Source: Citrus sinensis | Lineage: Eukaryota > Streptophyta > Magnoliopsida > Sapindales > Rutaceae | NCBI RefSeq assembly: GCF_022201045.2 | Contig: NC_068561.1 | Span: 20,586,501-20,650,500, forward strand | DNA length: 64,000 nucleotides | Direction: 5' to 3' | Shown: positions 9,034 through 60,862 of the stretch, one piece after another | Position numbering within the stretch: the stretch's first letter is position 1 | How the letters are laid out: the number at the start of each line of letters is the position of its first letter | The notes under the pieces: model-generated | What the model was told of the DNA's origin: nothing | Seen by the model: only the letters and a program-made list of their open reading frames with translations | The model's database searches: none | Program-made: the position numbers and the translations under genes

Positions 9034-9915
9034 TCAACATTCAAGCAGTTCTAAACCATGCAAGACATTAGCGTACTTTTGGAGCTCATACTCGTTTCCA
9101 AAATGCTTATCTTTAATCTTCAAGAACGCATGCAATGTCAGCAGGCTATCCGATCCGGCTTGGTGGCTCTTCCCAACGACCCGCTCCACACCCAATGCCT
9201 TGCAAACCCGATCCAATCCCCCATATAAGCACGTACAAAACCTAATCAAATGCTTCACATCATATACTTTCTCCCCAAAAAACACGCCCACTCGAGTCAC
9301 AAACTCACTCAATTTCTCAGGCAAGACCCGCTGTGTCAAGCATTTAACCAAATACCCGAAATCATAGGCGCTGTGGAAGGTCACCCATGTAACGTCCTTG
9401 TTTAATACAAGCCCTGACGACATCAACAATTCAGCAAATCTTACCGAGTCGATTCCAAATTCACGATTCTTTTCAAAATCAATACCTTGTCGTTTCAACA
9501 GCTCAACCGAATCGAGAGCGTGGGCGTGACGCGCGATATCGAAGTCCTTAAAATTGAACTCCCAAATATAATACGTAGAACCCGACCCGAGGTCCGGAAG
9601 ATTCCCTTCCTCGTCCGATAAGGTTAAACCTATTTGGATCAGATTTAACAGATCCACATTTGCCTTGAGTCCATTGTAATTCGCAGCCGGGTCACGGTGA
9701 CGGATGTTCGAATCGGGTCGGACCACGACGCCAGGGAACTCCGTGTCCATTGAGATTATCGGATATCTGTCAATTAAAGCTCTGATCCTTTCGAACTCGG
9801 AGATCAAGTTAAACTCAAATACCTCTCGGATCAAGATCCGAGGCTTCGGAGGCTGCGGCGGCGGTACGTCTGACATGGCAAGAAATCTTGTCGGATCCTG
9901 ATCCAATTGATTCAA
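9034..9915 (-). CDS. CAF1: CCR4-associated factor 1 (CAF1/POP2) deadenylase
   Basis: Single-exon gene of 293 residues. It belongs to the DEDDh family of 3'-5' exoribonucleases, which shorten poly(A) tails as the CAF1 subunit of the cytoplasmic CCR4-NOT complex and so control mRNA decay. The catalytic set is visible: Asp57 and Glu59 in SMDTEFPG, Asp185 in HSAYDFGYL, and His251 and Asp256 in SHQAGSDSLL. The catalytic domain covers nearly the whole protein, and length fits plant CAF1 proteins of about 270-300 residues. The reading frame opens at 9915, but a second Met (residue 14, MSDVPPP) is an equally plausible start because the first 13 residues are not conserved-looking. Plant CAF1 genes are commonly intronless and stress-inducible; that is family knowledge. 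A TATA-like sequence lies about 110 bp upstream. Confidence 0.95.
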   Translation of the reverse strand: MNQLDQDPTRFLAMSDVPPPQPPKPRILIREVFEFNLISEFERIRALIDRYPIISMDTEFPGVVVRPDSNIRHRDPAANYNGLKANVDLLNLIQIGLTLSDEEGNLPDLGSGSTYYIWEFNFKDFDIARHAHALDSVELLKRQGIDFEKNREFGIDSVRFAELLMSSGLVLNKDVTWVTFHSAYDFGYLVKCLTQRVLPEKLSEFVTRVGVFFGEKVYDVKHLIRFCTCLYGGLDRVCKALGVERVVGKSHQAGSDSLLTLHAFLKIKDKHFGNEYELQKYANVLHGLELLEC

Positions 9916-19000: not shown

Positions 19001-19826
19001 GATATTTCCTGAAATCATTTTACTGGAATATAGGTATAGGGTTCCTGAAATCTGGGAGGGATCTTCAGGTTTGTAATTTCTGTTATCAAAATATCTGTTT
19101 TGTCATTTGGCTATATTCTTATGCAGATCATCTGTTTGATAAAATTCGTAAGAGAATCAAGTAAAAGAAAAACGAACACTTTCTGCAACATGTGTGTATA
19201 CAGAGATTAAAAACTTTATGGGTACTTTTTCCTTATGGAATTGTTAAAATATTCGACTCTTGTTGCTTTCTTTGATTAAAAAAAAAAAAATAGCTGCAAA
19301 TTTCCAAGCACGATTAGTTTCAATGTCAAATGTATTCCATAAGTGATTCATTGAACTGATATTTTTTGGGGCTTGCCCCTGTTGGTATGTGAATCTGCTT
19401 GACTAGATCGTTCCCAGCATGGATGCTAATAATAACATTTAGTTGGGTACACTTAGTTTTTCAATTGGAAAAATGAAGACTAAGTAATTAGCTGTAATTG
19501 TTGTTGGAATGAGCTGCATTTGCATTATAATTGCAGTGTTAGAGAGATGAATGGTGCATCTTCCAAGTTTGCTACTTCATTAAAAAAAAAAAAATGCATA
19601 TGTACATATTAGCTGCTAGAATATAGAGAATCATGCCCTATGATGAAAGAAGGCTATAATTATTTTTTTAGTGTGTTTGTTTTGTAGAAAATGAAGTGTA
19701 ATTATTTTTATACTGTGATTAAAATATTCAAGAATCACTTTAGTTTTCTCACACTATTTCTAGATTTTTGGGTCTGCTTGTGGGTAAAACAAATGATTTT
19801 TTTCTTCCAAAATGTTTTGGTTGCAG
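16099..19826. other. Intergenic region and upstream part of the SR-like gene
   Basis: The first few hundred bases are the upstream region of the leftward UEV gene, so UEV and the SR-like gene diverge from this interval. The middle is AT-rich with no supported gene. From about 18.8 kb the sequence looks like the promoter and 5'UTR of the SR-like gene. It has a CACGTG G-box near 18817 and a good donor at 19069 (CAG|GTTTGT). The matching acceptor TTGCAG ends at 19826, directly before the ATG, giving a likely 758-bp 5'UTR intron. Confidence 0.55.
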
Positions 19827-21884
19827 ATGTCTTTGTATATTGGTAATTTATCATCTCACACTCGTAGAGGTGAACTTGAAAGAGTCTTCCAAAGGTTTGG
19901 AGACTGTAATGTCCGGGTGAAAGATGGATATGGGTTTGTGGTATATGAATCTGCTCCAAATGCAGAGAAAGCTTTGATCACACTGCAGGGAAGGAATATC
20001 TGTGGGCAGCCATTAACTCTTATGTGGTCTAATAAACAGCCCAGGCCTTATAAAAGATTTTCAAAGGCTGCTAGGTCCTATGAGCCACTATATGGAAGGA
20101 GTTCTAATAGACGAGAAGATTATACTGATAGAAGATTGCATTCAAACAGCCGAAAATACTACAAATTTGGTAGAAGGGTTAATTCTGCTGATATGCTTGA
20201 TGGAGACACTAGCTACCATCAGGACAATATTAAAGATTACATCCAGGAAGAGCATTGTGAATACAGAGAAGATTTGCCTGATGAAGGTGTGAATGATAAA
20301 CCTAAACCGGTGGACAATGACAGATGGGCTGGACAATTACAGGACCAACCTAATGGCAACAGCATTGAAAATGGTATGGAACTAGACCGGTATGAATCTT
20401 ACCGTGGATCTGATAGGAGGGATGAGCACAAAATCCATCACATCGCCTATTCTGATGGTTCTCATGTTCCACAAAGCTCTCAGGATGTATTGACGAGGGG
20501 TCATCTTTCTGAGGCACCTTTAGACCCTTCTAATCATTCAAAACCCCAGCTAACTTGCTACAGTTGTGGAGGCTCAGGCCACAAAATGCGAAATTGTCCC
20601 AGGCAAATTACCTCACAAAGAAAGTTCAAGAGGCTTGGGCATAGGCATGATGATGACATTAAAAGAAGCTGTAGAGCTGAAAGCAATTTGGAAAGATATG
20701 AAGCAGGTTCTCAGAGAGAGCAGCGGCCTTATAGGGACTCTATATCAGTTAGTGGACTTGGGGATGAGGGGAAAGCTTCTGGTTCTGGAAGGCATCAAAG
20801 GCTGATAAAGAATAGGAGCTCCAGTGAGGCAAAGGAAGGTGTGAGGGCCAGAAAGGACCATGAAGTGAAGAAGCGAAGGAGGAATTTTGGATCTCCAAAC
20901 AAACACAGTGAAAAGAAAGCAAAAAGGTCAGTTTCATTGTCTCTTCAGTCTGACTACGCTGAATCCGGATCACACTCAACTTCTCGTTCTCCGAAACCTG
21001 TTCCAAAGTTTGGTTTGCGCTCTAGATCGAGATTGGCATCTTCTAGATCATATTCTTTTGCTTCTAATTCAAGGTCCAGTTCATCACCTCACTATTCTAG
21101 ATCCACCAGCTCTAAGTCTAGATCAAGATCAAACTCCCATAAATCCTTGCCTTTATCTGAGTCCCTTGGCGAGGCTTTACCATCCTCACCAAATAAGGAG
21201 CAGTCTAATCTGAAAGGAACTTCAGCTAAGACTGTTATTCCTGAATCTAAGGAAATTCTAGTTGAGCAAGCTCTACCTTGTGACGTTTCAGAGACTGCTG
21301 AACTGGAAAATAACACATTGGTGGCGAAAAGTGATAAGGTGGTTTCATCCTCCGAAGTGGAAAATGATATGGATAAAAACCAGCATATGCAGAGGGATTG
21401 GAATGACAACCTGATGATTTCAACGTCACTGCTTGACATAGCTAATCAAAGTACACATCCGTCTAAGAAAGACACACTTAATGCTAGAAGTCTGTCTTCA
21501 GAAACCTTGAAAGAGACAATGGAACATCAAAATTCTTATGTATCGGAGATCGTGCATAAGCCATCATCAATTAAGAACTCTAATTCAGAAGCTCCTGTCA
21601 GTTTGCACTCTGCCTGTTCAACAAGCATATCCTCTGATGAGATGTACATGGTTCTGAAGCATTATGGCCTGGAACTTGATGAAAATGAAAGGAATTTACC
21701 TCCACAGGCTTATTTTGGTTCTGCTCGCTTATGGCCTTGGGAGATAATCTACTATAGGAGGTTGAAGAAGGGCCCTATATCAATTGAGAATTATGCCAGA
21801 CGAATTGCTCAGAATCAGGAATTTGGAATTGTTGATAAGTATGTAAGAAGCAGTAGTGGATGGGGAGAACTTGGTCAGGACTAA
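19827..21884 (+). CDS. SR-like RNA-binding protein with RRM and CCHC zinc knuckle
   Basis: One coding exon of 685 residues. The start at 19827 is chosen over an ATG five codons upstream because TTGCAG ends exactly before it (a splice acceptor) and the RRM begins there. Residues 1-72 form an RRM, with RNP2-like LYIGNL and RNP1-like DGYGFVVYE. A zinc knuckle follows at about 244-257 (CYSCGGSGHKMRNC). Next come a basic stretch and an RS-rich region (about 360-440, many RS/SR pairs). The last about 80 residues, around LPPQAYFGSARLWPWEIIYY, look like a compact conserved domain that I cannot name. RRM plus RS content predicts a nuclear pre-mRNA splicing role by association with SR proteins. It is longer than classical SR factors, so 'SR-like' is safer than a specific name. 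Confidence 0.88.
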   Translation: MSLYIGNLSSHTRRGELERVFQRFGDCNVRVKDGYGFVVYESAPNAEKALITLQGRNICGQPLTLMWSNKQPRPYKRFSKAARSYEPLYGRSSNRREDYTDRRLHSNSRKYYKFGRRVNSADMLDGDTSYHQDNIKDYIQEEHCEYREDLPDEGVNDKPKPVDNDRWAGQLQDQPNGNSIENGMELDRYESYRGSDRRDEHKIHHIAYSDGSHVPQSSQDVLTRGHLSEAPLDPSNHSKPQLTCYSCGGSGHKMRNCPRQITSQRKFKRLGHRHDDDIKRSCRAESNLERYEAGSQREQRPYRDSISVSGLGDEGKASGSGRHQRLIKNRSSSEAKEGVRARKDHEVKKRRRNFGSPNKHSEKKAKRSVSLSLQSDYAESGSHSTSRSPKPVPKFGLRSRSRLASSRSYSFASNSRSSSSPHYSRSTSSKSRSRSNSHKSLPLSESLGEALPSSPNKEQSNLKGTSAKTVIPESKEILVEQALPCDVSETAELENNTLVAKSDKVVSSSEVENDMDKNQHMQRDWNDNLMISTSLLDIANQSTHPSKKDTLNARSLSSETLKETMEHQNSYVSEIVHKPSSIKNSNSEAPVSLHSACSTSISSDEMYMVLKHYGLELDENERNLPPQAYFGSARLWPWEIIYYRRLKKGPISIENYARRIAQNQEFGIVDKYVRSSSGWGELGQD

Positions 21885-47679: not shown

Positions 47680-48101
47680 TGTTTTCAACTGATTTTGGGG
47701 TAGGAAAATCCAAAATCAATCTTCAACAATGAATTTATATTTTTGGGGGAGATGGGGTACCTCACTAGTTTATTGTGTGCGGTGCGGTGTATCTGAAATG
47801 CGGGGAGGTGAGAAAGGGAGAGAGAGTGGTAACAATGGTGGAAGATCAGAAACAAGAGAGGTATCCTTCAAAATGAGCTTCACGCCTGCAAAACAATGAA
47901 ATAGAGGTTAGAGGTGAAGCCAGGGGTACCCCGGCGTTCACACTCCGACGCTCAAGTTAGCAAACTCAAGCTTTTATTGCAAAGAGAGCTAGCTAGCCCT
48001 CTGTAAATTAGGGTTTAAGGTTGAAGAAAACCTTTTTTTTTTTGGAGTGTGAGTGTTTTTGGGCGAATGAGAGCATGATGGAGAATGAAACCTAGGCGCC
48101 T

Positions 48102-48134
48102 TTATATATGGAGTACCTTAGCTGCCACGTGGCA
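48102..48134 (-). promoter_or_regulatory. LTR core promoter: TATA box and palindromic G-box
   Basis: The minus strand reads CCATATATAAAGG, a strong TATA box at 48102-48109. A perfect 12-bp palindrome TGCCACGTGGCA (G-box/ABRE core) lies about 14 bp upstream of it at 48123-48134. Further ACGTGGC copies lie at 48222-48228 and about 48694-48700. ACGTGGC is the binding core of plant bZIP factors of the ABF/GBF type, so ABA, stress or light response is possible. The same set is in the right LTR (TATA 60231-60238, G-box 60252-60263), where it would drive the genomic RNA. Confidence 0.7.
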
Positions 48135-48463
48135 TACCCTTTTTGGCTAACGTCCTTTTACCGCTTTTATGATTCTTGGGGCCGTTATGTGCATGTTCGC
48201 GGCGTATCTCATCTTTTGGAAACGTGGCGTGCGCTGGAGAGTGGTCCAGGGTACCTCTGCAGTAGCTGTCGGGTAGGCGGCTAGGGACCACTGTCCTTGG
48301 GACAGTGTCCTTCACTTTTGGCAGAGGTAGCAGACGGCTGTCCCTCCTTTTAGCACGTCGCTTTTGATTCTTAATTCTGACAAAATCAAATGATATCTTT
48401 TAGGAGGCGGAGACGTTTCTCATGGCGGATATTTTCGGTGGATTCTCTTGCATCCGCTTTGCC

Positions 48464-48672
48464 GGGTACCTCGAATTACATGGGGTACCCCCTATTACGC
48501 AGGGTACCCCTATCTGTATGGGATACCTCTATTTGTATGGGGTACCTCTATTTGTATGGGGTACCTCTATTTGTGTGGGATACCTCTAATTGTGCAGGGT
48601 ACCTCTATTTATACGGGGTACCTCAAGTCATGTCGGGCACCTCGGATTATGTAGGGTACCTCCGATTGTGCT
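48464..48672. repeat. U3 minisatellite: 11 units of 19 bp (left LTR)
   Basis: Eleven units in exact 19-bp register follow the consensus GGGTACCTCTATTTGTATG. Eight contain GGTACC, two read GGATACC and one GGGCACC, while the 10-base spacer varies more. In transcription direction the array is upstream of the LTR TATA box, the position of an enhancer. The equal copy is at 60593-60801. Confidence 0.95.
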
Positions 48673-48736
48673 GATATCATTCCATTGGCTGACACGTGGC
48701 GCTCTATTACCTTTCTCATCTTTCCCTCAAACAACA

Positions 48737-48743
48737 TCCCCCT
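48737..48743 (-). other. Polypurine tract
   Basis: On the minus strand AGGGGGA, within AAACTAGGGGGATGT, lies directly before the 3' LTR. It is the expected primer for plus-strand DNA synthesis. The tract is short and its exact limits are inferred. Confidence 0.6.
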
Positions 48744-48904
48744 AGTTTCTTTTTGGCGAGAAGTATTGGAGGCAAAAGAAACTTATTGTATGAGTGACAC
48801 GTGGCGATGCGGCTGGACCGGAGGGTACCTTGCTTAGCTTCTTCCCTTGACTAAACTTTGTGTACTTCAAACTAAAAATCTTCTCTTTGTCTTTTCCTTT
48901 TCCC

Positions 48905-48938
<34 letters not shown>

Positions 48939-49564
48939 GATGAGAACGAACAGTTGTCTTCATATGTCTCTCTCCTTTTTCTTGGGAAGTGGCAGCCGTC
49001 TGACACGCAGTTTGAATTTTGAAAATACAAATCTCACTCAAACATCCCTGAACTCCTTTCTTGAGCAACGTGTTTTGTCAGGTTGAATTTAAAACTCCTG
49101 ACGTGTGTCAAAGTTTTGAAAATCCCCAAACGAACTCCCAAAAATTGATTATTTCCAGTAGCCTTTTTCTTCCATAATTTCGTCTCTTCTTCTAACTGGA
49201 TCAACATTATCACAGGTAAAAATAAAAATTTCTTTACTCTTTTTTTTTTTTTTTTTTTTTTTTCTTTCTCACGTTTCTCCTTCCTTTTTCTCTCTTTTCC
49301 TTCTTCCTTTTCTTTCTTTCTTCTTTCTCTTTCTCTCTCGACCGGCGTTGATCTGGTACGTTTTCCGGCGTGGATCTCGGCTGCTGCAGTGGCGGTTTTG
49401 GGCTCCAGATCTGGTCGGTTCAAGGCGATTTCCGGCGGCTCACAGCGAGATCTCAGTCCGGCGATACACACGGTAACCCCTCCTTCATCGTTTCTTTATT
49501 TTTCCCTTGGTGCTTTCTCTCTTCCTTCCCTTTTCTTCTCTTTTCCGTTTCGGCTTGGTGTTTT

Positions 49565-49960
49565 TCTCTGTGATTTCCGGCGTCGGTTTGGTGTGGTTGC
49601 GGCCGGCGTTGGTTCGGTGGCTGCAGCCGGCGTCGGTTTGGTGGTTTCCGGCGTTAGTTTAGCGGCTGTAGCTTCTCGATTTTTCTCTTTTTTTTGTTTC
49701 GACCGGTGCTTTTCTCTATGATTTCCGGCGTCGGTTTGGTGTGGTTGCAGCCGGCGTCGGTTCGGTGCTTGCAGCCACGACAGCCGGCGTCGGTTTGGTG
49801 GCTGCAGTCCCCTCTTCCGTGTTGTCTTCTCTGTTCTTCGTTTTCTTTTCTTTTTTTTTTTTTTTTTTTGGCTGGCGTCCTCCTTTGGCGGTTTCCGGCA
49901 TCCTTCTCGTGATCTCCGGCGTCGGTTCTCGGTGGTTGCAGCCATGACAGCCGACGTCGG
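49565..49960. repeat. GC-rich minisatellite, CCGGCGTCGGTTTGGTGG type
   Basis: About ten imperfect units centred on CCGGCGTYGGTTYGGTGG, joined by TTGCAG or TTTCCGG spacers. A larger unit of about 147 bp is also visible: GATTTCCGGCGTCGGTTTGG recurs at about 49573 and 49720. Tandem repeats in this position are a known habit of Tat-lineage elements and can seed satellites. Confidence 0.8.
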
Positions 49961-50329
49961 TTGCTGCAGCTTCTTCGTTCTTCATTTTATTTATTCATTT
50001 ATTTATAAATAACTATATATATTTAAGCTTATTTTTGTTTTTATACTTGCATATTTTTACCCACTATTTTTGGTTGCCTGCAGTTTCATTTCGCCGCGAT
50101 TATCAATCCCGTTCAGTTGAATTGGTGAATCACAGGTATCCCTCCTCGCTTCTCCTCCTTTGGCGCATTCACAGTGGCGCTATTTTGCATACTCTGAGAA
50201 AATTTTGTTTTTGGTTTTTGTTGTTTTTTTTTTTTTTTTTGTTGGTTGGTGTTTGCATTTGGTGGTTGATGTGTGGTGGATGGTGCTTGGTATGGATATA
50301 TTGTTGTTTGGAAAACATGTGGCTTGTTG

Positions 50330-50460
50330 GATGTGTTGTTGGGGGCTTGTGGATATGTTGTTGGGTGTATCGTTGGGTGTATTGTTGGGGAACTTGTGGA
50401 TGTGCTGTTGGGGGCTTGTGGATGTGCTGTTGGGGAACTTGTGGGTGTGTTGTTGGGTAA
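50330..50460. repeat. GT-rich minisatellite before the antisense gene
   Basis: Units of the kind GTTGGGGGCTTGTGGATGTG alternate with TTGGGGAACTTGTGGATGTG variants. It ends within about 10 bp of the antisense-gene ATG. Confidence 0.75.
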
Positions 50461-50466
50461 AAGTAG

Positions 50467-52775
50467 ATGGGCAAAAAGCACACGGGACCCCCGATGAAGC
50501 GACGTAAAGTTGGGGCTAGTAGGGTTGACAACCCTCCTGCGGGTTCCCCTTCCCACATCTCCATCAGCGAGGGGGATCGGTCCCCTCCTAATTCCTCTAG
50601 GAGTTGCAATTCTCGTTCTGAGCCCCCTCCTCCTAGGAGTACCCCTCGTGTCAGCCCACGCTTTCCTAGTAGACGGCCTACCCCTCATCCTCGAAAGAAG
50701 GTTAAGCCAACCAAGCCTAAGGTTCCAGCTCGTTCCTCGGACCAGCCGCCTAAATCTCCCCCTGCCACACCTTCAAAATCTAGCAACCCTTTTTCCCTAG
50801 GCATTAGGAGGGCTACTTTGGGGGAGTTGGAGCAAATTAGAGCCAAATACAATATTCCTCCGTCTGTCCAGCTTAGGGTACCCCATGTGAATGAGCGACC
50901 CGAGTGTCCAAAGTCTGATGGGATTGCTCTCCATATCGACCTCTTCGATCTAGGACTCCGCCTGCCCCTCCAACCATTCTTTATGAAAATGTTTAATTAC
51001 TTGGGGGTAGCTCCTGGGCAGCTGTCCCTTCCAGGGTGGAGGACACTGACGGGCTTACATGTGTTATGGTTGGAGGTCGTGAAGCGCGACATTTCTGTTC
51101 GGGAGTTGAGGGGCCTTTACCAATTCAAGAAGCCTAAGGGTCCCGGCATTGCTTACTTCTCTCCCTGGGGTGATCATGGCCACATCGTTGAGGGGAACCC
51201 CGCCTTGAAGAAGGGTTACCGAAAGGGATGGTTTGTCGCTGAGGGTAGGTGGGGGACAGAGACTCTAGGTGAGAAGGGCGACCCCGTGGAGGTTTCTCAT
51301 TCCTTCAATGTAGACTGTAAGTATCTCCCTTACTTATGGTTTTTAATCGGAATCTTTCGCCTGAATGTCTCACTAACCTTGAGTTCTTTATGCTTTCACA
51401 GGTGTGACATGGGCTAAAGGATCATGCCCAGTTCAGGAGGTGGGGAGAGAGGTGAAGAAATTTATGGACAGGCTTCGAGGTGCACAGAGGGGTAGTGATG
51501 TGCTGGAGGAGAGCCGATTATGGAGAGCGGGGCTGATTGACCGAAGTCCTACATCTGCTCCTGGGGGTGACTCATGTATGATTTGGGTGTCGGGGGGTAT
51601 CCTATTATTACTTATGGGACTGGGGTACCCCATTATTATTGCATTCTTCGTTTCGCTTCTCCGCTTTCCATTTCTTATTTTTACTTTTGCAGTACTTAGT
51701 ACTTGTCCAGCTAACATAACTTTTGTGCATTGGGTGCAGTCATGGAATCGACGGGTGATGCTTTCGACGCCTTCTTCCAAGCGGTAGTGGGCGGTGCTTC
51801 CGGATCTCAGGATTCGGCGGTACCCCCGAAAGGCTCCCGACCTCCTCGAGCTCCCGGTCCAAAGGGGAAATCTCAGGGTACCTCCCACAGCGGGTCAAAG
51901 GGTACCCCTCGCTCGAAGAAGAGAAAATTCGGGCTGGTTTTTACTTTCCCCGATGAGTTACGTGAGGGTGACTTAGACCCGGCTTCTAACAAGGAGGTTT
52001 CGCACTTGGCTCGCCACTTTTACTACTCTGCTGAAAATGTCACCTCCGAGGTTGCTGAAGAGGTTGACAAGATGAGCTTGAGCCAGCGTTATGGTCAAGC
52101 ACTTAGGGCTACCCAAGAGGTAGGCTTTCTTGGGGTACCCTGGGTGTACTCTTCATCATTTTTTTTTTTTTTACTTATTTGATCTTTTCGCCATACACAT
52201 ATATTTAACATGTCTTGCATGACCCGCAGGCATCCTTTCTCCTTAGCCACTGCCTTCCGGATCTCGACTCCCTTGTTGCCGCACAGTCAGAGGTCGACAA
52301 GTTAAGGAGTGAGCTTCAAAACCGTCAATCTCGTGAGGATCAGCTCGCTCGAGAAGTTAAAACTCTGCAAGAACGCATTGCTGGCCTATCGGGAGAGAAA
52401 GCTAGGGTGGAGAAGGATTGTGAGGAGTTGAGGGCCACCAACGGGGATCTGCTATCTCGGCAAAAGACGATGGCGGAGGATGCATTCTCACTCATCATGA
52501 CGGAGGTGTGGAGTGTGGATCCGGCGTTGGAGGTACCCCGCGTGCAGAAATTCGTCAACAAGGCTGCCATTCTGAAGACAATTGCGGAGCGGAAGAAGTC
52601 TTCCCAAGCACGGTCGGGTACCCCTTCTGGGTCGCCTGGGGTACCCCATCAGCCTCAGTCGTTGCCCGCCTCGGATGCCCCTATTTCGGCGGCTCATATT
52701 CCGGGTACCTCGGAGTCTTCTGCCGATCGCCCTTTAGAGACGGATGTTGGGGATCGCGTTCCCCCCTCGGTGTAG
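50467..52775 (+). CDS. Spliced gene antisense to the retrotransposon
   Basis: Four exons on the strand opposite gag-pol: 50467-51316, 51402-51566, 51740-52119 and 52230-52775. Introns of 85, 173 and 110 bp all have GT-AG ends, and the three joins keep one frame for 646 residues to a stop. Exon 2 could instead end at 51575, which also keeps frame. Residues 1-110 are basic and Pro/Ser-rich. About 115-285 form a globular part (LGELEQIRAKYNIPPSVQ, FNYLGVAPGQLSLPGW, YFSPWGDHG) resembling the plant 'putative gypsy type transposon' domain (Pfam Transposase_28), from memory. Exon 3 encodes a basic Gly/Lys/Pro-rich linker. Exon 4 encodes a long coiled coil (SEVDKLRSELQNRQSREDQL onward), then a Pro/Ser-rich tail. 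Function is unknown. Extra open frames, some antisense, are known in Tat elements. Confidence 0.85.
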
Positions 52776-53865
52776 CCTTCTCACTGTGCTCTTGTTTATC
52801 GGATCTATCCACATTTTGCTATTTGGACCTTGTTTATTTCTTTTTGGTTTCTCGGGATATTTTGTTTTATTGAGACTTCTCTTTTGTTATGATATCATAC
52901 CATCTAGTCCTCTTGTACTTTGCATTATTCTGCAAATGAATGCTTGGCTAAACTGTTATCTTACAAATTCCTAGGGTACCTCTCATTTCATCATTTTTTT
53001 TTTAAAATGGGGTACCCCTGGTACCTTAACAAGTATTCAACATCAGGCGCCTGCTGGTTTACACTGAGCGGCGAATTTGGTGCATGCCCTCCTCGGCAAC
53101 CATGGCGGATTTTCCACAAATAGGTAATCAAAACATCGTCGCGACATCTCGATCAAAAATTGAAAGTGCGCAATTGGTCCAACCAATCAATTTCTTATTC
53201 TTTCGAAGTGCTCTCCGAATTTTTGAATAGCTTATCCCATACTTTGCAAAAGTACGAGGACGGAGGTGTGGGTGTTCTCATACCTAAGCCGAACTTCGTG
53301 CCGCTAGGGTATGCCGGTTTTTCTTCACCCTCGGGTCCTCTTTGACCCTCCCTCGCTTTGTCTAGGTAGCTTTGTCATGCTTCCGCAGAAAGGCTACCCA
53401 TGGGCTGTTCACTCCATTGCCTATCTTGGCTTTACACAGATCGTCACGATCTAGGCATATCAAGTACCTTGGCTGGTCCTGTGATAGGTTAGTCATAACT
53501 GACAAGCGTATGGCGAGAATTGCATATAACCAGATGCGAGGGTATATTAATGGCGATAAATGAATGTAATCTGCATTCTAAGATCGAAGTGGCGAAAAAT
53601 AAAGAAAGAACTCACATCATATTTGTTGAGAAAGAAAATGCATTTATAGATAACGAAAGCGTTGATCAATACATGACTTAGCTTTGTTACCCTGAGGAGA
53701 ATGGGAGACCGCAAGACCTCCTATTCTTTTCATTTGAAAATTAAAGAAACTCTAAAGTTGTAACTGAACAACATAGGGCATTTGGGGTACCCTACTTGGC
53801 CTATCACACAAAAACATTAAAGAAAGCAAATAACAGCAAAAGACTAAAGGTTGAGACACCGTCCT
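52776..53865. other. Element spacer between convergent antisense gene and gag-pol
   Basis: It holds the 3'UTR of the antisense gene on the plus strand and the post-pol region on the minus strand. Four GGTACC motifs lie here, two of them 11 bp apart near 53010-53027. No supported coding frame. Confidence 0.6.
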
Positions 53866-56800
53866 TTAGTAATATTTCCGTAGCATTGCAGCGTTCCAGG
53901 GGTGCCTCACAATTGTGCCATCCATGTGGAGTAGCCTGTATGCACCTGTCCCAACGGGTTTGTCGATGCGGTAAGGTCCTTCCCAATTTGCCCCGAAAGC
54001 ACCTTCGTAGGGTACCCTAGTGTTCTGAGTTACCCTTCTCAAGACCAAGTCTCCTTTCTTGAAGGATCGAGGGCGTACCTTTTTTTCATATAGACCCGAA
54101 ATGCGATGCTGATATATGGCTGTCCTCAGTTCTGCTCTAGCCCTTTTTTCAGCCACCAAATCAAGGTTTGAAGCAACCAAGGAGGTGTTCTCGGCCTCAT
54201 CGAAGTATTCAACCCTGTGAGAGGGTACCCCGATTTCTGCAGGAATCACTGCGTCAACACCGAATGCGAGGGAAAACGGGGTCTCCCTGGTGGAGGTGTT
54301 TTGAGTAGTCCGGTATGCCCACAGTACGCCAGGTAGCTCGTCTACCCATGCTCCCTTTCTTTCCTCTAGCTTCTTCTTCAGGATACCTTTGATAATCTTG
54401 TTAACGGCTTCGACTTGCCCATTAGATTGGGGGTGGGCAGGTGTAGCAAATCGGTTGGCTATCCCCAACTCCGAACAAAAGCTTCGAAATTTTTCATTAT
54501 CGAATTGCTTGCCGTTATCACTGATAATTGCATAAGGGATTCCAAATCTGCAAATGAGGTTCTTCCAAATGAATTCGGTGGTTTTCCTTTCTGTGATGCT
54601 TGTTAGTGGCTCCGCTTCCGCCCATTTTGTAAAATAATCTACCGCCACGATTGCATGTTTTGCTTGCCCCTTCCCGGTAGGTAACGGGCCAATGAGGTCC
54701 ACTCCCCACATAGCGAAGGGCCAAGGGGAAGATATAACTGTTAGCTTCTCTGGGGGTAGGTGGGGTACCCTGGCGAACCTTTGGCATTTGTCACAGTTTC
54801 GTACCATATTCTTGGCATCTTCCCGCATGGTTGGCCAGTAGTACCCCTGACGGAGAGCTTTTTGCGCCAGTGATTGTGCTCCATAATGATTGCCACAAAT
54901 CCCCTCATGTATCTCCCTCATGACATACTCGGCCTCGTCGCTTCCCAAGCATTTAAGGTAAGGAAGAGTGAACCCTCTTCTGTATAGGGTATCCTGGATC
55001 AGGCAATACCGGGCAGCTTTATACTTTAGTCTTCTCGCTTCACTTTTATCTGAGGGGAGGTCTCCATCCTTGAGGTGCCTTATGATAGGCTCCATCCAAA
55101 GTACCTCGTTGGACAGTGATCCTACTTCCAACGGCTCTAGGAGATCAATGCTGGGGGCGGGTATGTGTTCTGTTGTGATGGGGCCAGCTGACTGAGCTAC
55201 ACCAAGGGACGCCATTTTTGCTAGGGTATCGGCTTCGCTGTTCTCCAGTCGGGGTACCCTTTCCACTTTAACCTCGCAAAATTGGGACATCAACTCTCTG
55301 GTTTTTTCGAGGTACCCCTTCATGTTTTCCTCTTTCGCTTGATACTGTGCGGTAATCTGGCTTACCACCAACTGTGAGTCGCTCTTGACGTGTACCCTTT
55401 TTGCTCCCAAAGCCTTCGACATCCTCAACCCCGCTATGATTGCCTCGTACTCGGCTTCGTTGTTTGAAGCCTTGAATCCGAATTGCAGGGCGTAGCATAT
55501 TTTCACCTTGTTCGGGTCGATTATAATAACTCCTGCGCCACTTCCGTGTGAGTTAGAGGAACCATCCACATATATTTCCCAGACCTGCTCCTCTTCATCG
55601 GTAGGTGGGGTATCTAACAGGTATCTCAGATCGCCTTCACCACTTGAGTCATTGGCGAATTCCGCAATGAAATCAGCAATGGCCTGAGCTTTAATCGCCG
55701 AACGAAGCTTGAAGATGATGTCGAACTCACTTAATTCGAGGGACCATCGGAGAAGCCTTCCGGACATGTCTAACTTCTGAAGGATTTGCCGGAGGGGAAG
55801 GTTGGTGACGACTGCAATGGTGTGAGCCTGAAAATATGGTCTGAGCTTCCGTGCGGAGACAACCAATGCCAAAATGATCTTCTCAGAGGTGGGGTACCTT
55901 TTTTCGGCATCAACCATAGCCTTACTAGTGTAGTAAATAGGTCGTTGTACCCCATTATCATCCTCTCGGAGTAACACAGAGCTGGTGGCATGCTCGGATA
56001 CGGCGAGATATAGCAGCAGCACCTCTCCCGGCTCAGGTTTGGCAAGTAGTGGAGCATTCACGAGGTACCCCTTCAGTTCTTGGAAAGCCTCTTCGCAATC
56101 GGGTGTCCATTGGAGCTTTTTACCGGTCTTCAAAGCTTTGAAAAAGGGCTTACACCGGTCGGTAGCCTTGGAGATAAAGCGGCTCAGAGCAGCTACCCGG
56201 CCTGCCAAGCTTTGAACCTCCTTGATGGTGCTTGGCGATTTCATGTCAAGAACTGCGCGAATTTTATCGGGGTTGGCTTCAATCCCCCGTTGTTGTACCA
56301 TGAAACCGAGAAACTTTCCCGAGGTTACCCCGAATGCACATTTTTCAGGGTTTAGCCGCATCTGATGTTTTCTCAAAACGGTAAAGGTATCTCTGAGGTG
56401 CCCCAGGTGTTCCCCCGCATGCACCGATTTGGTGATCATGTCGTCTATGTACACCTCCATGGTGCGCCCGATTTGTTCTTTAAAAATTTTGTTCACTAGC
56501 CGCTGGTAGGTAGCCCCGGCATTCTTCAAACCAAACGGCATAACCTTATAACAGTATAACCCCCGGTTGGTGATGAAGGCTGTTTTCTCTTGATCGGGTT
56601 CGTACATCGGGATTTGGTTGTACCCGGAGAAGGCGTCCATAAAACTAAGCATTTCATGCCCCGCTGTTGCATCAACCAGCTGGTCCACCCGAGGAAGCGG
56701 GAAGCTATCCTTGGGGCAGGACTTATTCAAGTCGGTGAAGTCCACGCACATGCGCCACTTTCCGTTTGATTTCTTGACAAGAACAACGTTGGACACCCAA

Positions 56801-59751
56801 TCGGGGTACACTGCTTCCCGAATAAACCGTGCTACTAATAGGCGGTCTACCTCTTGTTCAATTGCATCGTACCTCTCTTGATTGAAGGCGCGACGCTTCT
56901 GTTTGACCGGTTTATTATGCGGGCTGACATTGAGTTTGTGACATGAGAGAGAATGTGGGATACCCGGCATATCCGAGTGGGACCAAGCAAATACATCGAG
57001 GTGCTCACATAGGAAGGTGATGAGTTTCTCCCTTTGTTCCTTCGAGAGGTTGGAGCCTACTTTCACTGTCTTTGTTGGGTCGGTGGCGCAAATCGAGACT
57101 GAAATAAGATCTTCAACTGGGGTACCCCGCATTTCATCTTTCAATATTCGGGGATCCAAAGGTGCCTCAACTTCACATCTGGGCTCCTCCTGGTCCCCGT
57201 GAGGTACCCTCGAGCTATCCCCCGTAACTGCTTCCATCTCTCTTGGTGAAAACTCCAACTTTTCTCGTGGGTGGGCTACTTGAGGAGATTTTTTCAGTAC
57301 TGTTCTCCGCTGTCTAGCAAGTGCTCGCTTTGAGGGGGAAGGTGTGGGCTGGCTGCCACTAGGGTACCCCTTCATTGGCGGATCTGAAGCTATTTGGTAA
57401 GTGACTTTGGAGGCCACGGAATAACATCCACGAGCCGATTGCTGGTCCCCTTTAATGGTGATAACTTCTTGGGCGGCCGGGACTTTCATGGCGAGATAGT
57501 GCATGGATACCACCGCTTTAGTTGCTACTAAGAACGGCCTACCCAATATAATATTGTAGGCACCCGGGTGATCTACAATAAGAAAATCAATCATATGAAC
57601 AACACGGTGAGGTACCTTACCAAGTGTAACGGGCAGCGTAATGATGCCTTTTGGTATAACCATATCTCCGGCGAACCCAATAAGAGGCGTAGCACATGGG
57701 GTGATCTTTGGCGACTCAATCAATAGCTGATCCAAGGCGCTTTTGAAAATGATGTCAACGGAGCTACCGGTATCTACGAGAGTTCTTGCTACCTTACCAG
57801 TGGCAACCTTCAACGTAATTACGAAGGCATCATCGTGGGGGTACGAGATGCCCTCCGCATCTTTTTCTGTAAAAAGGATAGGCGGGGGATGGTGGGGTAC
57901 CTTCGGTGTACCCCATTCATTAAGGTTGACTTCTCTGCCCATATTGGTGGTTATCGACAACGATCTACCATAGCCTTTGATAGCCCTCCTAGATTGGCCC
58001 GCTAAAGTCGGTCCGCCCATGATCATTCGGACATACACGCCTTTCTTGTGTCCAAGGGGTACCTCTCGTTCGGGACTGCCATCAGCTACCCGCTTGCCTT
58101 TATCATGTTCCGCAGATTTCCGAGCTTCTCTCATACCAGCAACAAATTCTTTGAGGTACCCGCTGAGAATCAAAGATTCAATTTCTTCTCGCAAGGTGAA
58201 GCACTCGGCTGTGCTGTGACCAAAGTCCTCATGGAACTCGCAATACTTCAGGCTACGCTTCATGTTGGGGTACTTCTTCATTGGCTTAGGAGGGCGGAGG
58301 AGGCCACTATCCCGAATATGGTAGAAGATCTGCTCTGGGGATCGATTCAGTGGGTGGTAAGATTCATACCGAGGCCTCGGCGGTGGCTCTCGCTGATCCG
58401 GTGGTGGCGATCTTGGAGGTTGGGGTACCCTTGAGGCACCCTGAGGGTTATACCCTCGTCCCCGCAAGGCAGCCCGTGGAGGGCTCCGTGCTCGGGGCAC
58501 CCGCGGTATTGGGGCCTCCACCCTCTTGGGCTTCTCCTTGTTCTTTGTAACATCGGCCTTATCTTCTTGGCGCTTCAATTGGCATTTTTCGTCCATCTCC
58601 ACTTGTTGCAACGCCCGAGAACGGGCTTCCCCATATGAAAGTGGACGCTTCTTTTGAAAAGAACGCCATAACTTACCCAACCGTAAATTTTTCTCAAAAT
58701 GGGTCAATGTGTATTGGTTTCCAAATGCTCCGGTCCGCAGCACCTCTTGGTGGAAACGACTTACATACTCCGCCAAAGGCTCGGCTTCCCCTTGCTTGAT
58801 AAAGGCAAGTTTGGAGGCTACCCTATCTTGAGTGGAAGCATAGGAAAACTCTTTAGTAAATTCAGATAACAATTGGTGTAAGGAAGATATGCTACCCGCC
58901 TTCAAAGAGCGAAACCATGACTTCGCGGGGCCCGTGAGTGTGTGTGTAAACATCCTACACATGGCGCTCTCATCTACACCCTTAATAAGCATTTGGTCAC
59001 GGTATAGCTCAGCATGCTCCGAGGGATCAGTGGTACCCGAGTATTGGGGTATCTGAGGCATGGCAAACGCCTCGGGGAGAGCTGCTGTCCTAATCTCCAT
59101 AGTGAATGGCGATTGGTAGGTCATTGGCGTTGGTGCAGCTGTGATGTTTTGCTTCTCGGAGAGGAGCTTCACTTGGGCTTCCAGGTTCTCCATCTTTTCC
59201 ACAAGTTCGAGGGGTACCCTCGGTGTACCTGATGATGTCGCCGCCATTTGAGAAGCCCTTTTGGCGTTTAACTTCTCACGGAGATCCTCGTGGGTACGCT
59301 TTGCACGCCTCGTACCCTGGCTACTGCGGGAATTGCAAGAGGCGGTGGAACGCTCGTCGCGGGAGCCCATGGTTTGAAACTTAGAACGGGTACCCGATGG
59401 CCTAGGCTTTGGCTTGCTGGCCTCGGGTACCCCTCTTCTGACCATAGCTTGGTCGTCCGTTTGAGGTGGTGGAGCTTCTAGCGTCACTGGTGGAAGTGAA
59501 CTTTCGGGTGCCCGAGATCCAACCGCCCTAAGTATTGCGTGAGCAAGATCCTCAAAACGCTTGTGCGAAATAGGTTCTTCTTCTTGGCGAACACCCGTCG
59601 ACTGCTTGACACCCTTGCCCTTACTGATGCGGGCTACCCTTCTCGCGGGATCACTGCCTTCACTGCTGCTGTCCTCTCTCATCCTTGTAGGATCCCCCAT
59701 TAAACCTTCGGGAGGTACGTCGGGTGCCATGTATTGGAGTACACACAACAA
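53866..59751 (-). CDS. gag-pol: Gag-pol polyprotein, Ty3/gypsy Tat lineage
   Basis: One uninterrupted frame of 1961 codons. Order by residue: gag about 215-345 (KSWFRSL; FIKQGEAEPLAEYV); zinc knuckle-like CEFHEDFGHSTAEC about 502-515; aspartic protease LVDTGSSVDIIF about 655; reverse transcriptase with WRMCVDFTDLNKSCPK about 998 and YIDDM about 1100; a first RNase H about 1240-1330; a second, archaeal-type RNase H (YVDGSSNSHGSGAG, NNEAEYEAIIAGL) about 1390-1510; integrase with HHCC zinc finger about 1604-1655 and D,D,E core (WGVDLIGP, ISDNGKQF, SNGQVEAVNK) about 1680-1785. All catalytic residues are present. Gag and pol share one frame without frameshift or stop. The first ATG is only about 38 bases past the primer-binding site; MAPDVPPEGL, seven codons on, is an alternative start. 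Confidence 0.97.
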   Translation of the reverse strand: MLCVLQYMAPDVPPEGLMGDPTRMREDSSSEGSDPARRVARISKGKGVKQSTGVRQEEEPISHKRFEDLAHAILRAVGSRAPESSLPPVTLEAPPPQTDDQAMVRRGVPEASKPKPRPSGTRSKFQTMGSRDERSTASCNSRSSQGTRRAKRTHEDLREKLNAKRASQMAATSSGTPRVPLELVEKMENLEAQVKLLSEKQNITAAPTPMTYQSPFTMEIRTAALPEAFAMPQIPQYSGTTDPSEHAELYRDQMLIKGVDESAMCRMFTHTLTGPAKSWFRSLKAGSISSLHQLLSEFTKEFSYASTQDRVASKLAFIKQGEAEPLAEYVSRFHQEVLRTGAFGNQYTLTHFEKNLRLGKLWRSFQKKRPLSYGEARSRALQQVEMDEKCQLKRQEDKADVTKNKEKPKRVEAPIPRVPRARSPPRAALRGRGYNPQGASRVPQPPRSPPPDQREPPPRPRYESYHPLNRSPEQIFYHIRDSGLLRPPKPMKKYPNMKRSLKYCEFHEDFGHSTAECFTLREEIESLILSGYLKEFVAGMREARKSAEHDKGKRVADGSPEREVPLGHKKGVYVRMIMGGPTLAGQSRRAIKGYGRSLSITTNMGREVNLNEWGTPKVPHHPPPILFTEKDAEGISYPHDDAFVITLKVATGKVARTLVDTGSSVDIIFKSALDQLLIESPKITPCATPLIGFAGDMVIPKGIITLPVTLGKVPHRVVHMIDFLIVDHPGAYNIILGRPFLVATKAVVSMHYLAMKVPAAQEVITIKGDQQSARGCYSVASKVTYQIASDPPMKGYPSGSQPTPSPSKRALARQRRTVLKKSPQVAHPREKLEFSPREMEAVTGDSSRVPHGDQEEPRCEVEAPLDPRILKDEMRGTPVEDLISVSICATDPTKTVKVGSNLSKEQREKLITFLCEHLDVFAWSHSDMPGIPHSLSCHKLNVSPHNKPVKQKRRAFNQERYDAIEQEVDRLLVARFIREAVYPDWVSNVVLVKKSNGKWRMCVDFTDLNKSCPKDSFPLPRVDQLVDATAGHEMLSFMDAFSGYNQIPMYEPDQEKTAFITNRGLYCYKVMPFGLKNAGATYQRLVNKIFKEQIGRTMEVYIDDMITKSVHAGEHLGHLRDTFTVLRKHQMRLNPEKCAFGVTSGKFLGFMVQQRGIEANPDKIRAVLDMKSPSTIKEVQSLAGRVAALSRFISKATDRCKPFFKALKTGKKLQWTPDCEEAFQELKGYLVNAPLLAKPEPGEVLLLYLAVSEHATSSVLLREDDNGVQRPIYYTSKAMVDAEKRYPTSEKIILALVVSARKLRPYFQAHTIAVVTNLPLRQILQKLDMSGRLLRWSLELSEFDIIFKLRSAIKAQAIADFIAEFANDSSGEGDLRYLLDTPPTDEEEQVWEIYVDGSSNSHGSGAGVIIIDPNKVKICYALQFGFKASNNEAEYEAIIAGLRMSKALGAKRVHVKSDSQLVVSQITAQYQAKEENMKGYLEKTRELMSQFCEVKVERVPRLENSEADTLAKMASLGVAQSAGPITTEHIPAPSIDLLEPLEVGSLSNEVLWMEPIIRHLKDGDLPSDKSEARRLKYKAARYCLIQDTLYRRGFTLPYLKCLGSDEAEYVMREIHEGICGNHYGAQSLAQKALRQGYYWPTMREDAKNMVRNCDKCQRFARVPHLPPEKLTVISSPWPFAMWGVDLIGPLPTGKGQAKHAIVAVDYFTKWAEAEPLTSITERKTTEFIWKNLICRFGIPYAIISDNGKQFDNEKFRSFCSELGIANRFATPAHPQSNGQVEAVNKIIKGILKKKLEERKGAWVDELPGVLWAYRTTQNTSTRETPFSLAFGVDAVIPAEIGVPSHRVEYFDEAENTSLVASNLDLVAEKRARAELRTAIYQHRISGLYEKKVRPRSFKKGDLVLRRVTQNTRVPYEGAFGANWEGPYRIDKPVGTGAYRLLHMDGTIVRHPWNAAMLRKYY

Positions 59752-59788
59752 CTAGTTTGGTAACCGTGGAGGAGGCTTTTTGTGCGTC

Positions 59789-59806
59789 TCCCCACAGACG
59801 GCGCCA
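59789..59806 (-). other. Primer-binding site
   Basis: On the minus strand the sequence two bases past the 5' LTR reads TGGCGCCGTCTGTGGGGA. From memory of plant tRNA-Asp(GUC), its first nine bases pair with the 3' end including CCA, and the last five fit again after a four-base mismatch. tRNA-Asp-like primers are used by related plant gypsy elements. Confidence 0.8.
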
Positions 59807-59808
59807 AT

Positions 59809-60862
59809 TGTTTTCAACTGATTTTGGGGTAGGAAAATCCAAAATCAATCTTCAACAATGAATTTATATTTTTGGGGGAGATGGGGTACCTCACTAGTTT
59901 ATTGTGTGCGGTGCGGTGTATCTGAAATGCGGGGAGGTGAGAAAGGGAGAGAGAGTGGTAACAATGGTGGAAGATCAGAAACAAGAGAGGTATCCTTCAA
60001 AATGAGCTTCACGCCTGCAAAACAATGAAATAGAGGTTAGAGGTGAAGCCAGGGGTACCCCGGCGTTCACACTCCGACGCTCAAGTTAGCAAACTCAAGC
60101 TTTTATTGCAAAGAGAGCTAGCTAGCCCTCTGTAAATTAGGGTTTAAGGTTGAAGAAAACCTTTTTTTTTTTGGAGTGTGAGTGTTTTTGGGCGAATGAG
60201 AGCATGATGGAGAATGAAACCTAGGCGCCTTTATATATGGAGTACCTTAGCTGCCACGTGGCATACCCTTTTTGGCTAACGTCCTTTTACCGCTTTTATG
60301 ATTCTTGGGGCCGTTATGTGCATGTTCGCGGCGTATCTCATCTTTTGGAAACGTGGCGTGCGCTGGAGAGTGGTCCAGGGTACCTCTGCAGTAGCTGTCG
60401 GGTAGGCGGCTAGGGACCACTGTCCTTGGGACAGTGTCCTTCACTTTTGGCAGAGGTAGCAGACGGCTGTCCCTCCTTTTAGCACGTCGCTTTTGATTCT
60501 TAATTCTGACAAAATCAAATGATATCTTTTAGGAGGCGGAGACGTTTCTCATGGCGGATATTTTCGGTGGATTCTCTTGCATCCGCTTTGCCGGGTACCT
60601 CGAATTACATGGGGTACCCCCTATTACGCAGGGTACCCCTATCTGTATGGGATACCTCTATTTGTATGGGGTACCTCTATTTGTATGGGGTACCTCTATT
60701 TGTGTGGGATACCTCTAATTGTGCAGGGTACCTCTATTTATACGGGGTACCTCAAGTCATGTCGGGCACCTCGGATTATGTAGGGTACCTCCGATTGTGC
60801 TGATATCATTCCATTGGCTGACACGTGGCGCTCTATTACCTTTCCCATCTTTCCCTCAAACA
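59809..60862 (-). repeat. Right LTR (5' LTR, promoter of the element)
   Basis: It matches the left LTR over all 1054 bp except one base (C at 60845). In transcription direction it starts TGTTTGAGG and ends AGTTGAAAACA. Its minus-strand TATA box at 60231-60238 should start the genomic RNA leftward into gag-pol. U3 carries the 19-bp array and ACGTGGC motifs. Confidence 0.96.
60593..60801. repeat. U3 minisatellite: 11 units of 19 bp (right LTR)
   Basis: Identical by eye to the array at 48464-48672. In this LTR it lies upstream of the promoter that is actually used, so any enhancer role would act here. Confidence 0.95.

Follow-up and report, generated by a model that had tools for sequence, protein, structure and literature searches.

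Introduction

VANC proteins, which are encoded by VANDAL elements (Mu-like DNA transposons of Arabidopsis), bind a sequence motif and clear methylation across whole elements, as described in the parts of the reports used here (PMC5735166, PMC10398659). Among retrotransposons, TRP28 is a predicted DNA binder of unknown function that is present in 97% of recently active Retand clusters, according to the consulted part of the Retand description (PMC11963269). In the open-licence literature, nothing was found that combines Citrus, retrotransposon, GGTACC and palindrome, searches for dispersed motifs with an element-encoded binder returned nothing but a yeast review, and an LTR-retrotransposon anti-silencing system was not noticed.

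Here we analyse a window of 64 kb (the whole stretch of Citrus sinensis DNA that was studied), in which one retrotransposon carries the palindrome GGTACC throughout its length. With a probability of roughly one half, GGTACC is a family-specific, element-wide binding site of the antisense (TRP28-type) protein that the element itself encodes, in an anti-silencing system resembling that of VANC and VANDAL.

The retrotransposon and its antisense gene

The element, a young Ty3-gypsy retrotransposon of Tat/Retand type, carries an antisense gene (Table 1). Its two LTRs are identical at 1053 of 1054 positions, ACTAT forms a perfect 5-bp target duplication flanking it on both sides, and gag-pol contains Pfam matches to gag, RT, RNase H and integrase, the last three in Ty3 order. 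The antisense gene lies between pol and the 3' LTR on the plus strand, opposite to gag-pol. The region from pol to the 3' LTR (48734-53865) is 5.1 kb long, inside the range of 2.9-6.6 kb given in the part of the Retand description at hand (PMC11963269). Upstream of the antisense gene (5' side, window positions 49557-49980), imperfect CCGGCGTCGGTT-rich repeats occur amid T-rich runs, as seen partly by eye. Elsewhere in the window, host ORFs are located at 19812-21884 (+) and 9034-9915 (-), and by eye they resemble an RRM/zinc-knuckle splicing factor and a CAF1-type deadenylase, respectively.

Table 1. Coordinates of the retrotransposon and of selected GGTACC sites (window positions).
Feature	Position	Strand	Remarks
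Complete Ty3-gypsy element, Tat/Retand-type	47680..60862	- (gag-pol strand)	LTR identity, ACTAT duplication, Pfam matches
Left LTR (3' LTR relative to gag-pol)	47680..48733		11 GGTACC
LTR array of 19-bp units	48465..48660		8 GGTACC and near misses
Antisense gene exon 1, TRP28 (PF04195)-like domain	50467..51320	+	One GGTACC, at 50877; exon end by eye from splice signals
Exon-1 GGTACC	50877..50882		Orthologous site in 4/4 sister copies aligned there (L061, L062, L063, L068)
Antisense gene, remaining exons and two introns	51403..52775	+	9 GGTACC, 2 of them intronic; exon ends by eye
Intronic GGTACC	51624..51629		Kept in 24/26 family copies
Intronic GGTACC	52134..52139		Kept in 24/26 family copies; absent from L062, L063 and L068
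Spacer GGTACC pair, 9-bp spacing	53011..53025		Both sites retained in sister copy L061
Intact gag-pol ORF, 1961 aa	53866..59751	-	19 GGTACC, all three frames used
Right LTR (5' LTR relative to gag-pol)	59809..60862		11 GGTACC

Enrichment of GGTACC

The window contains 58 GGTACC sites, of which 56 are in 47680-60862 and 2 in the other 50.8 kb. An earlier note, made by eye, had given the same totals and the same distribution, namely 11 sites per LTR, 19 in gag-pol, 10 in the antisense gene (2 intronic) and 5 in spacers, and all these counts are exact. Among the 34 internal sites, 27 are coding (19 in gag-pol and 8 in antisense exons). A dinucleotide model predicts 2.5 sites in the 13.2-kb element, in agreement with the chance level of about 3 that had been claimed. 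With a third-order Markov model trained on the element the prediction rises to 29.6, since GGTACC itself dominates the 4-base counts of the element; the dinucleotide model fails to predict the sites, and the third-order model, which absorbs the word, gets part of the way. Outside the element, a model of the third-order type predicts 3.7 sites in the window and 2 are seen.

When hexamers are ranked in the element, its antisense half or gag-pol, GGTACC and its shifted forms are on top, beside A/T runs; with the exception of these forms and runs, no hexamer is comparable to GGTACC element-wide. When sites less than 25 nt apart are counted as one, the best hexamer z is 18.2 in the element block, 3.8-4.3 in four 10-kb blocks of window 1-40000 and 5.6-5.7 in two downstream blocks, L065 and L067. 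All six blocks outside the element serve as controls; of these, L065 begins with a GGTACC array and L067 has 2 GGTACC sites.

An artefact arising from composition, codon use, biased mutation or slippage of repeats would be in line with the third-order model, which yields about half of the count, and tandem slippage does account for the LTR array itself; however, dispersed sites in differing contexts are incompatible with slippage, and the best hexamers of the control blocks (z 3.8-5.7 vs 18.2) fall far short. Together with the codon and retention data below, this leaves such an artefact hardly credible.

At 45 sites (one LTR counted), G is present at -1 in 36 and a pyrimidine at +1 in all 45, so that GGGTACCY is the usual form, as had been stated before. 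Near misses, also said to be common, are in excess when nine one-mismatch classes are pooled (81 seen vs 47 expected). The raised classes are mainly GATACC (15 vs 4.3) and GCTACC (15 vs 4.0), and some classes are not raised (GGAACC, 4 vs 9.0; GGGACC, 8 vs 8.4).

Selection at the DNA level

In gag-pol, GGTACC is read as Val-Pro at 11 sites, as x-Tyr-x at 5 and as Gly-Thr at 3, exactly the split reported in the earlier note. Under the third-order element model, the excess in gag-pol is weak (19 seen vs 12.75, z 1.7). A codon-preserving null is a fairer test of gag-pol than that model: synonymous codon shuffling gives 4.2 +- 1.8 GGTACC sites, with a maximum of 12 in 5000 shuffles, vs 19 seen. As the shuffles fall so far short, and as sites are also located in LTRs, introns and spacers, selection on GGTACC acts at the level of DNA and not of protein, which bears out the earlier proposal and argues against codon use as the source of an artefact.

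That proposal also included a test at orthologous codons. Where one of two aligned families has a gag-pol site that the other lacks, residue differences within the three codons concerned are found at 13 of 17 distinct positions, in a comparison that excludes 8 gapped cases and does not polarise the direction of change. Differences occur at 8/8 sister-only and 5/9 window-only sites, compared with 52% for other differing hexamers. At codon 1228, the predicted Glu/Gly case is present, likewise unpolarised. The notion of amino-acid changes forced by the gain of sites is therefore weakly supported: the residue differences and the case at codon 1228 are suggestive, and the background of 52% keeps them from being strong.

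Conservation within and between families

Within the family, comparisons were made with copies of up to 98.5% identity (22/30 LTR copies and 26/29 aligned antisense-gene copies, a thirtieth antisense-gene copy being left out because its alignment is too short). In the antisense-gene region, GGTACC is kept in 225/256 comparisons vs 0.653 for matched CG/CHG-free hexamers, and in the LTRs in 216/241 comparisons vs 0.835. As GGTACC contains neither CG nor CHG, slow decay would be a possible source of an artefact, but the matched hexamers are less often kept. Chance, codon use and slow CG-free decay are rejected by the background models, the codon shuffles and the retention of matched hexamers, respectively.

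Four sister copies share GGTACC, and their antisense proteins are 54-74% identical to that of the window. The fetched pieces contain 32 sites in 10 kb (L061), 21 in 10 kb (L062), 20 in 10 kb (L063), 21 in 8 kb (L066) and 11 in 5.5 kb (L068). Between these sister families and the window, 46/77 GGTACC sites are kept vs an overall mean of 17.4% for hexamers, although the comparisons are not independent, given that window sites enter repeatedly and that L062 and L066 belong to one copy with both its LTRs counted. In retention between families, GGTACC ranks 1 among 121 hexamers having at least 25 cases; its ranks in the individual pieces are 2/158, 2/80, 5/64, 1/53 and 1/23. Window sites are kept in 18/22 cases in L061, 9/17 in L062, 7/15 in L066, 8/15 in L063 and 4/8 in L068, and sister-only sites number 2, 3, 10, 5 and 0, respectively. 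By region, pooled retention is 8/13 in the LTR, 20/28 in antisense exons, 12/24 in gag-pol and 6/12 in introns and spacers, and in every class it is above that of the other hexamers of the region (0.12-0.23), although intron and spacer sites are kept in 0/3 cases in L062 and L063. The recurrence that the earlier note had asked for is thus found, GGTACC being dispersed both in other copies of the family and in sister families. Pieces L036 (20 GGTACC in 3.6 kb) and L026 (22 in 4.0 kb) have the top counts of their sets and are possibly local expansions.

A spread of sites over the whole element would also suit a role in integration or in the handling of chromosomes or cDNA, such as recognition by integrase or Gag, self-targeting or pairing of copies, instead of silencing. 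Integration signals are known at LTR ends, which speaks against this role, and on present evidence we regard it as improbable.

Spacing of the sites

In L062, L063 and L066, many GGTACC sites are paired at a distance of 9 bp. Spacings of 18 bp occur in L068, with GTAC but not the full word at 9 bp, and a single 9-bp pair is present both in L061 and in the window. Around 120 non-LTR sites, GTAC occurs at offset 9 in 38 cases and at offset 18 in 11, every full pair entering twice, and at any other offset up to 60 in at most 5. Genome-wide, GGTACC pairs number 220 at a spacing of 9 bp, as against 7 at 10 bp and 25 at 8 bp. For the reversed control word CCATGG, the numbers are 119, 21 and 12, so that the argument from spacing rests on the comparison with 8 and 10 bp. 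The 119 occurrences of CCATGG-N3-CCATGG perhaps belong to another repeat family. Among 50 listed of the 220 GGTACC pairs at 9 bp, 21 are within 12 kb of a match to the antisense gene of the window's clade (clade A; 0.3 expected) and 0 are near a match to that of a related clade (clade B); the remaining 29 are possibly fragments or solo LTRs.

The LTR array of the window's own family is built from 19-bp units. LTRs are the usual place of enhancers, and plant SBP/SPL sites have a GTAC core. A dense array at this place and this core would both fit binding by a host protein, such as an activator that recognises GTAC, with sites accumulated by the element for its transcription or for an open state, but a promoter factor would not need 19 sites in gag-pol or the intronic ones. 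Such a host factor seems unlikely also in view of the second word described below.

Since GGUACC is self-complementary, the word might instead act at the RNA level, its palindrome serving dimerisation or packaging, or it might be a signal for splicing or export. Strict 9-bp pairing fits a protein on duplex DNA better, GGTACC is present in genes of both strands and in introns, and the corresponding word of clade B, CGAGCAG, is non-palindromic and used in both orientations; a role in RNA is very improbable on these grounds.

A different word in a related clade

Clade B is sampled by two partial copies, L064 and L069, and both clades come from one genome. These copies contain 0 and 1 GGTACC sites, respectively, and CGAGCAG is the highest-z 7-base word in both (L064 with one array unit kept, L069 with the array included). 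The earlier proposal of a dispersed, orientation-free DNA label holds for copies of clade A, sister copies included, but GGTACC is not the label of all relatives, as L064 and L069 carry CGAGCAG instead. A family-specific repeated motif that differs in a related family is therefore seen, with GGTACC in clade A vs CGAGCAG in the two clade-B copies.

Outside the array, CGAGCAG occurs 12 times in L064, where 200 shuffles average 0.84 (maximum 5), and 4 times in L069, where they average 0.35 (maximum 3). In L069, 14 of 18 occurrences are inside one array, other words, mostly A/T-rich, are commoner than CGAGCAG outside it, and the looser form CGAG[CG]AG is within the shuffle range there (4 seen, mean 0.84, maximum 5). 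The array units, 123 bp in L064 and 69 bp in L069, are unrelated save for CGAGCAGA, which is their longest common word. In L064, the two orientations of CGAGCAG occur 11 and 9 times. Inverted pairs CTGCTCG...CGAGCAG are located at L064:7060-7085 and 7183-7208, with a start-to-start distance of 19 bp, equal to the unit length of the clade-A LTR array. The family of L064 looks like a large recent burst, in that among 150 scored of 448 candidates many antisense ORFs share their length (294) and PF04195 score.

The pol piece of L064 has 0 GGTACC and 5 CGAGCAG (mean under codon shuffling 0.97, with 5 reached in 5/3000), vs 6 GGTACC (mean 1.86, reached in 14/3000) and 0 CGAGCAG in the homologous pol piece of the window. 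In L064, only one CGAGCAG is located in the first antisense exon (mean 0.17), which counts against the clade-B word, and 3 are in the next ORF (mean 0.54). The use of different words in two clades of one host suits a reader that evolves with the element and is a further point against a host factor.

The antisense protein

Exon 1 of the window's antisense gene matches PF04195 with 17.8 bits, below the cut-off of 26.2. The clade-B homologues score higher (L064, 35.4 bits, above the cut-off; L069, 26.1 bits, just below it), and the profile gives no match in the L062 piece or P0010. The protein also has a basic stretch, recognised by eye, and a C-terminal coiled-coil-like region, indicated by weak matches. 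Two structure models of the TRP28 domain are of low confidence (pLDDT 42 and 56) and a fold search with the second gave no match, so that DNA binding has no independent support from structure; a sequence search for relatives of the domain in the PDB found none. Scans of viral contigs with the antisense protein, the RT piece and alignment A1 found no relative, and in protein searches Citrus is alone among the matches listed.

The copy represented by L062 is 91% identical to the window in RT and 61% in the antisense protein. For elements with a clade-B antisense gene, RT (matched by position) is ~72-74% identical and the antisense protein ~38%; L064 and L069 have 38% and 35%, within a clade range of 35-39%. 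Judged from these identities, the antisense protein evolves faster than RT. The apparent co-change of the antisense protein with the word is correlative and covers two clades. For the antisense protein, a role in retrotransposition is suggested in the part of PMC7264820 considered here, and it would favour a function of the sites in integration or handling; against such a function, the word differs between clades, two being compared, that retain ~73% identity in RT but ~38% in the antisense protein.

A model for element-wide anti-silencing

The palindrome, the strict 9-bp pairing and the clade-specific words point to a reader that occupies duplex DNA as a dimer and in arrays. For this reader, the antisense protein is the best candidate because it is encoded by the element, changes faster than RT and has a domain described as a probable DNA binder (PMC11963269), besides the basic stretch and the coiled-coil-like tail, and because its clades match the words.

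In the model that we prefer, GGTACC (in longer form RGGTACCY, in places repeated every 9, 18 or 19 bp) would be a site in duplex DNA that is selected over the whole element. The antisense-strand protein, with its TRP28-type domain and coiled-coil-like tail, would read this site, probably binding as a dimer, in keeping with the palindrome, and cooperatively, in keeping with the fixed 9-bp pairs. By coating every copy of the family, it might keep them from silent chromatin or re-activate them, as VANC does for VANDAL, and VANC-like clearing of methylation over the whole element would account for the need for sites throughout. With the origin of a new clade, the protein would change and the word with it, giving CGAGCAG in clade B. 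In sunflower, a local dip in CG methylation is described for Retand in the part of the report used here, but as it is shared by eight other lineages, and as CHG methylation remains high, it counts against a Retand-specific anti-silencing reading (PMC12844716).

A broader reading, which we hold tentatively, is that the Retand lineage of flowering plants writes a clade-specific address over the whole element, coding sequence included and perhaps at the cost of residues, that its own antisense TRP28 protein reads this address, and that TRP28 proteins are sequence-specific anti-silencing factors. If so, element-specific anti-silencing would extend beyond Mu-like DNA transposons and would have arisen independently in both transposon classes, and all the coding sequence of a retroelement could be under selection for a DNA label. 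With a candidate target word for each of two clades, the function of TRP28 is testable by one binding experiment.

Comparison with known systems

LTR subrepeats can act as enhancers. The citrus element resembles such subrepeats in its LTR array, which has one motif per unit, but differs from them in that its word also fills coding and intronic sequence.

With Retand elements, the citrus element shares an antisense gene (putatively TRP28-type) that is placed between pol and the 3' LTR, tandem arrays and a single gag-pol ORF, the last being found in 59% of Retand clusters; by contrast, a dispersed word was not seen in the consulted part of the Retand description, the main text of which does not contain the word Citrus (PMC11963269). 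Two sunflower clusters in that description lack TRP28.

VANC/VANDAL differs in several respects. VANDAL is a Mu-like DNA transposon whereas the citrus element is an LTR retrotransposon, and the citrus word is palindromic with 9-bp pairing. The VANC motif is located in non-coding regions, as described in the part of PMC5735166 used here, whereas GGTACC, besides the LTR array, is also present in gag-pol (19 sites) and antisense exons (8 sites) and is thus not concentrated in non-coding tandem repeats; the high coding share of the internal sites counts against a VANC-like reading. Binding and demethylation have been demonstrated for VANC and are predicted for the citrus antisense protein. The likeness of the two systems consists of a short word that occurs many times per family and partly in tandem arrays, of related families with other words, and of an extra element-encoded protein with variable parts.
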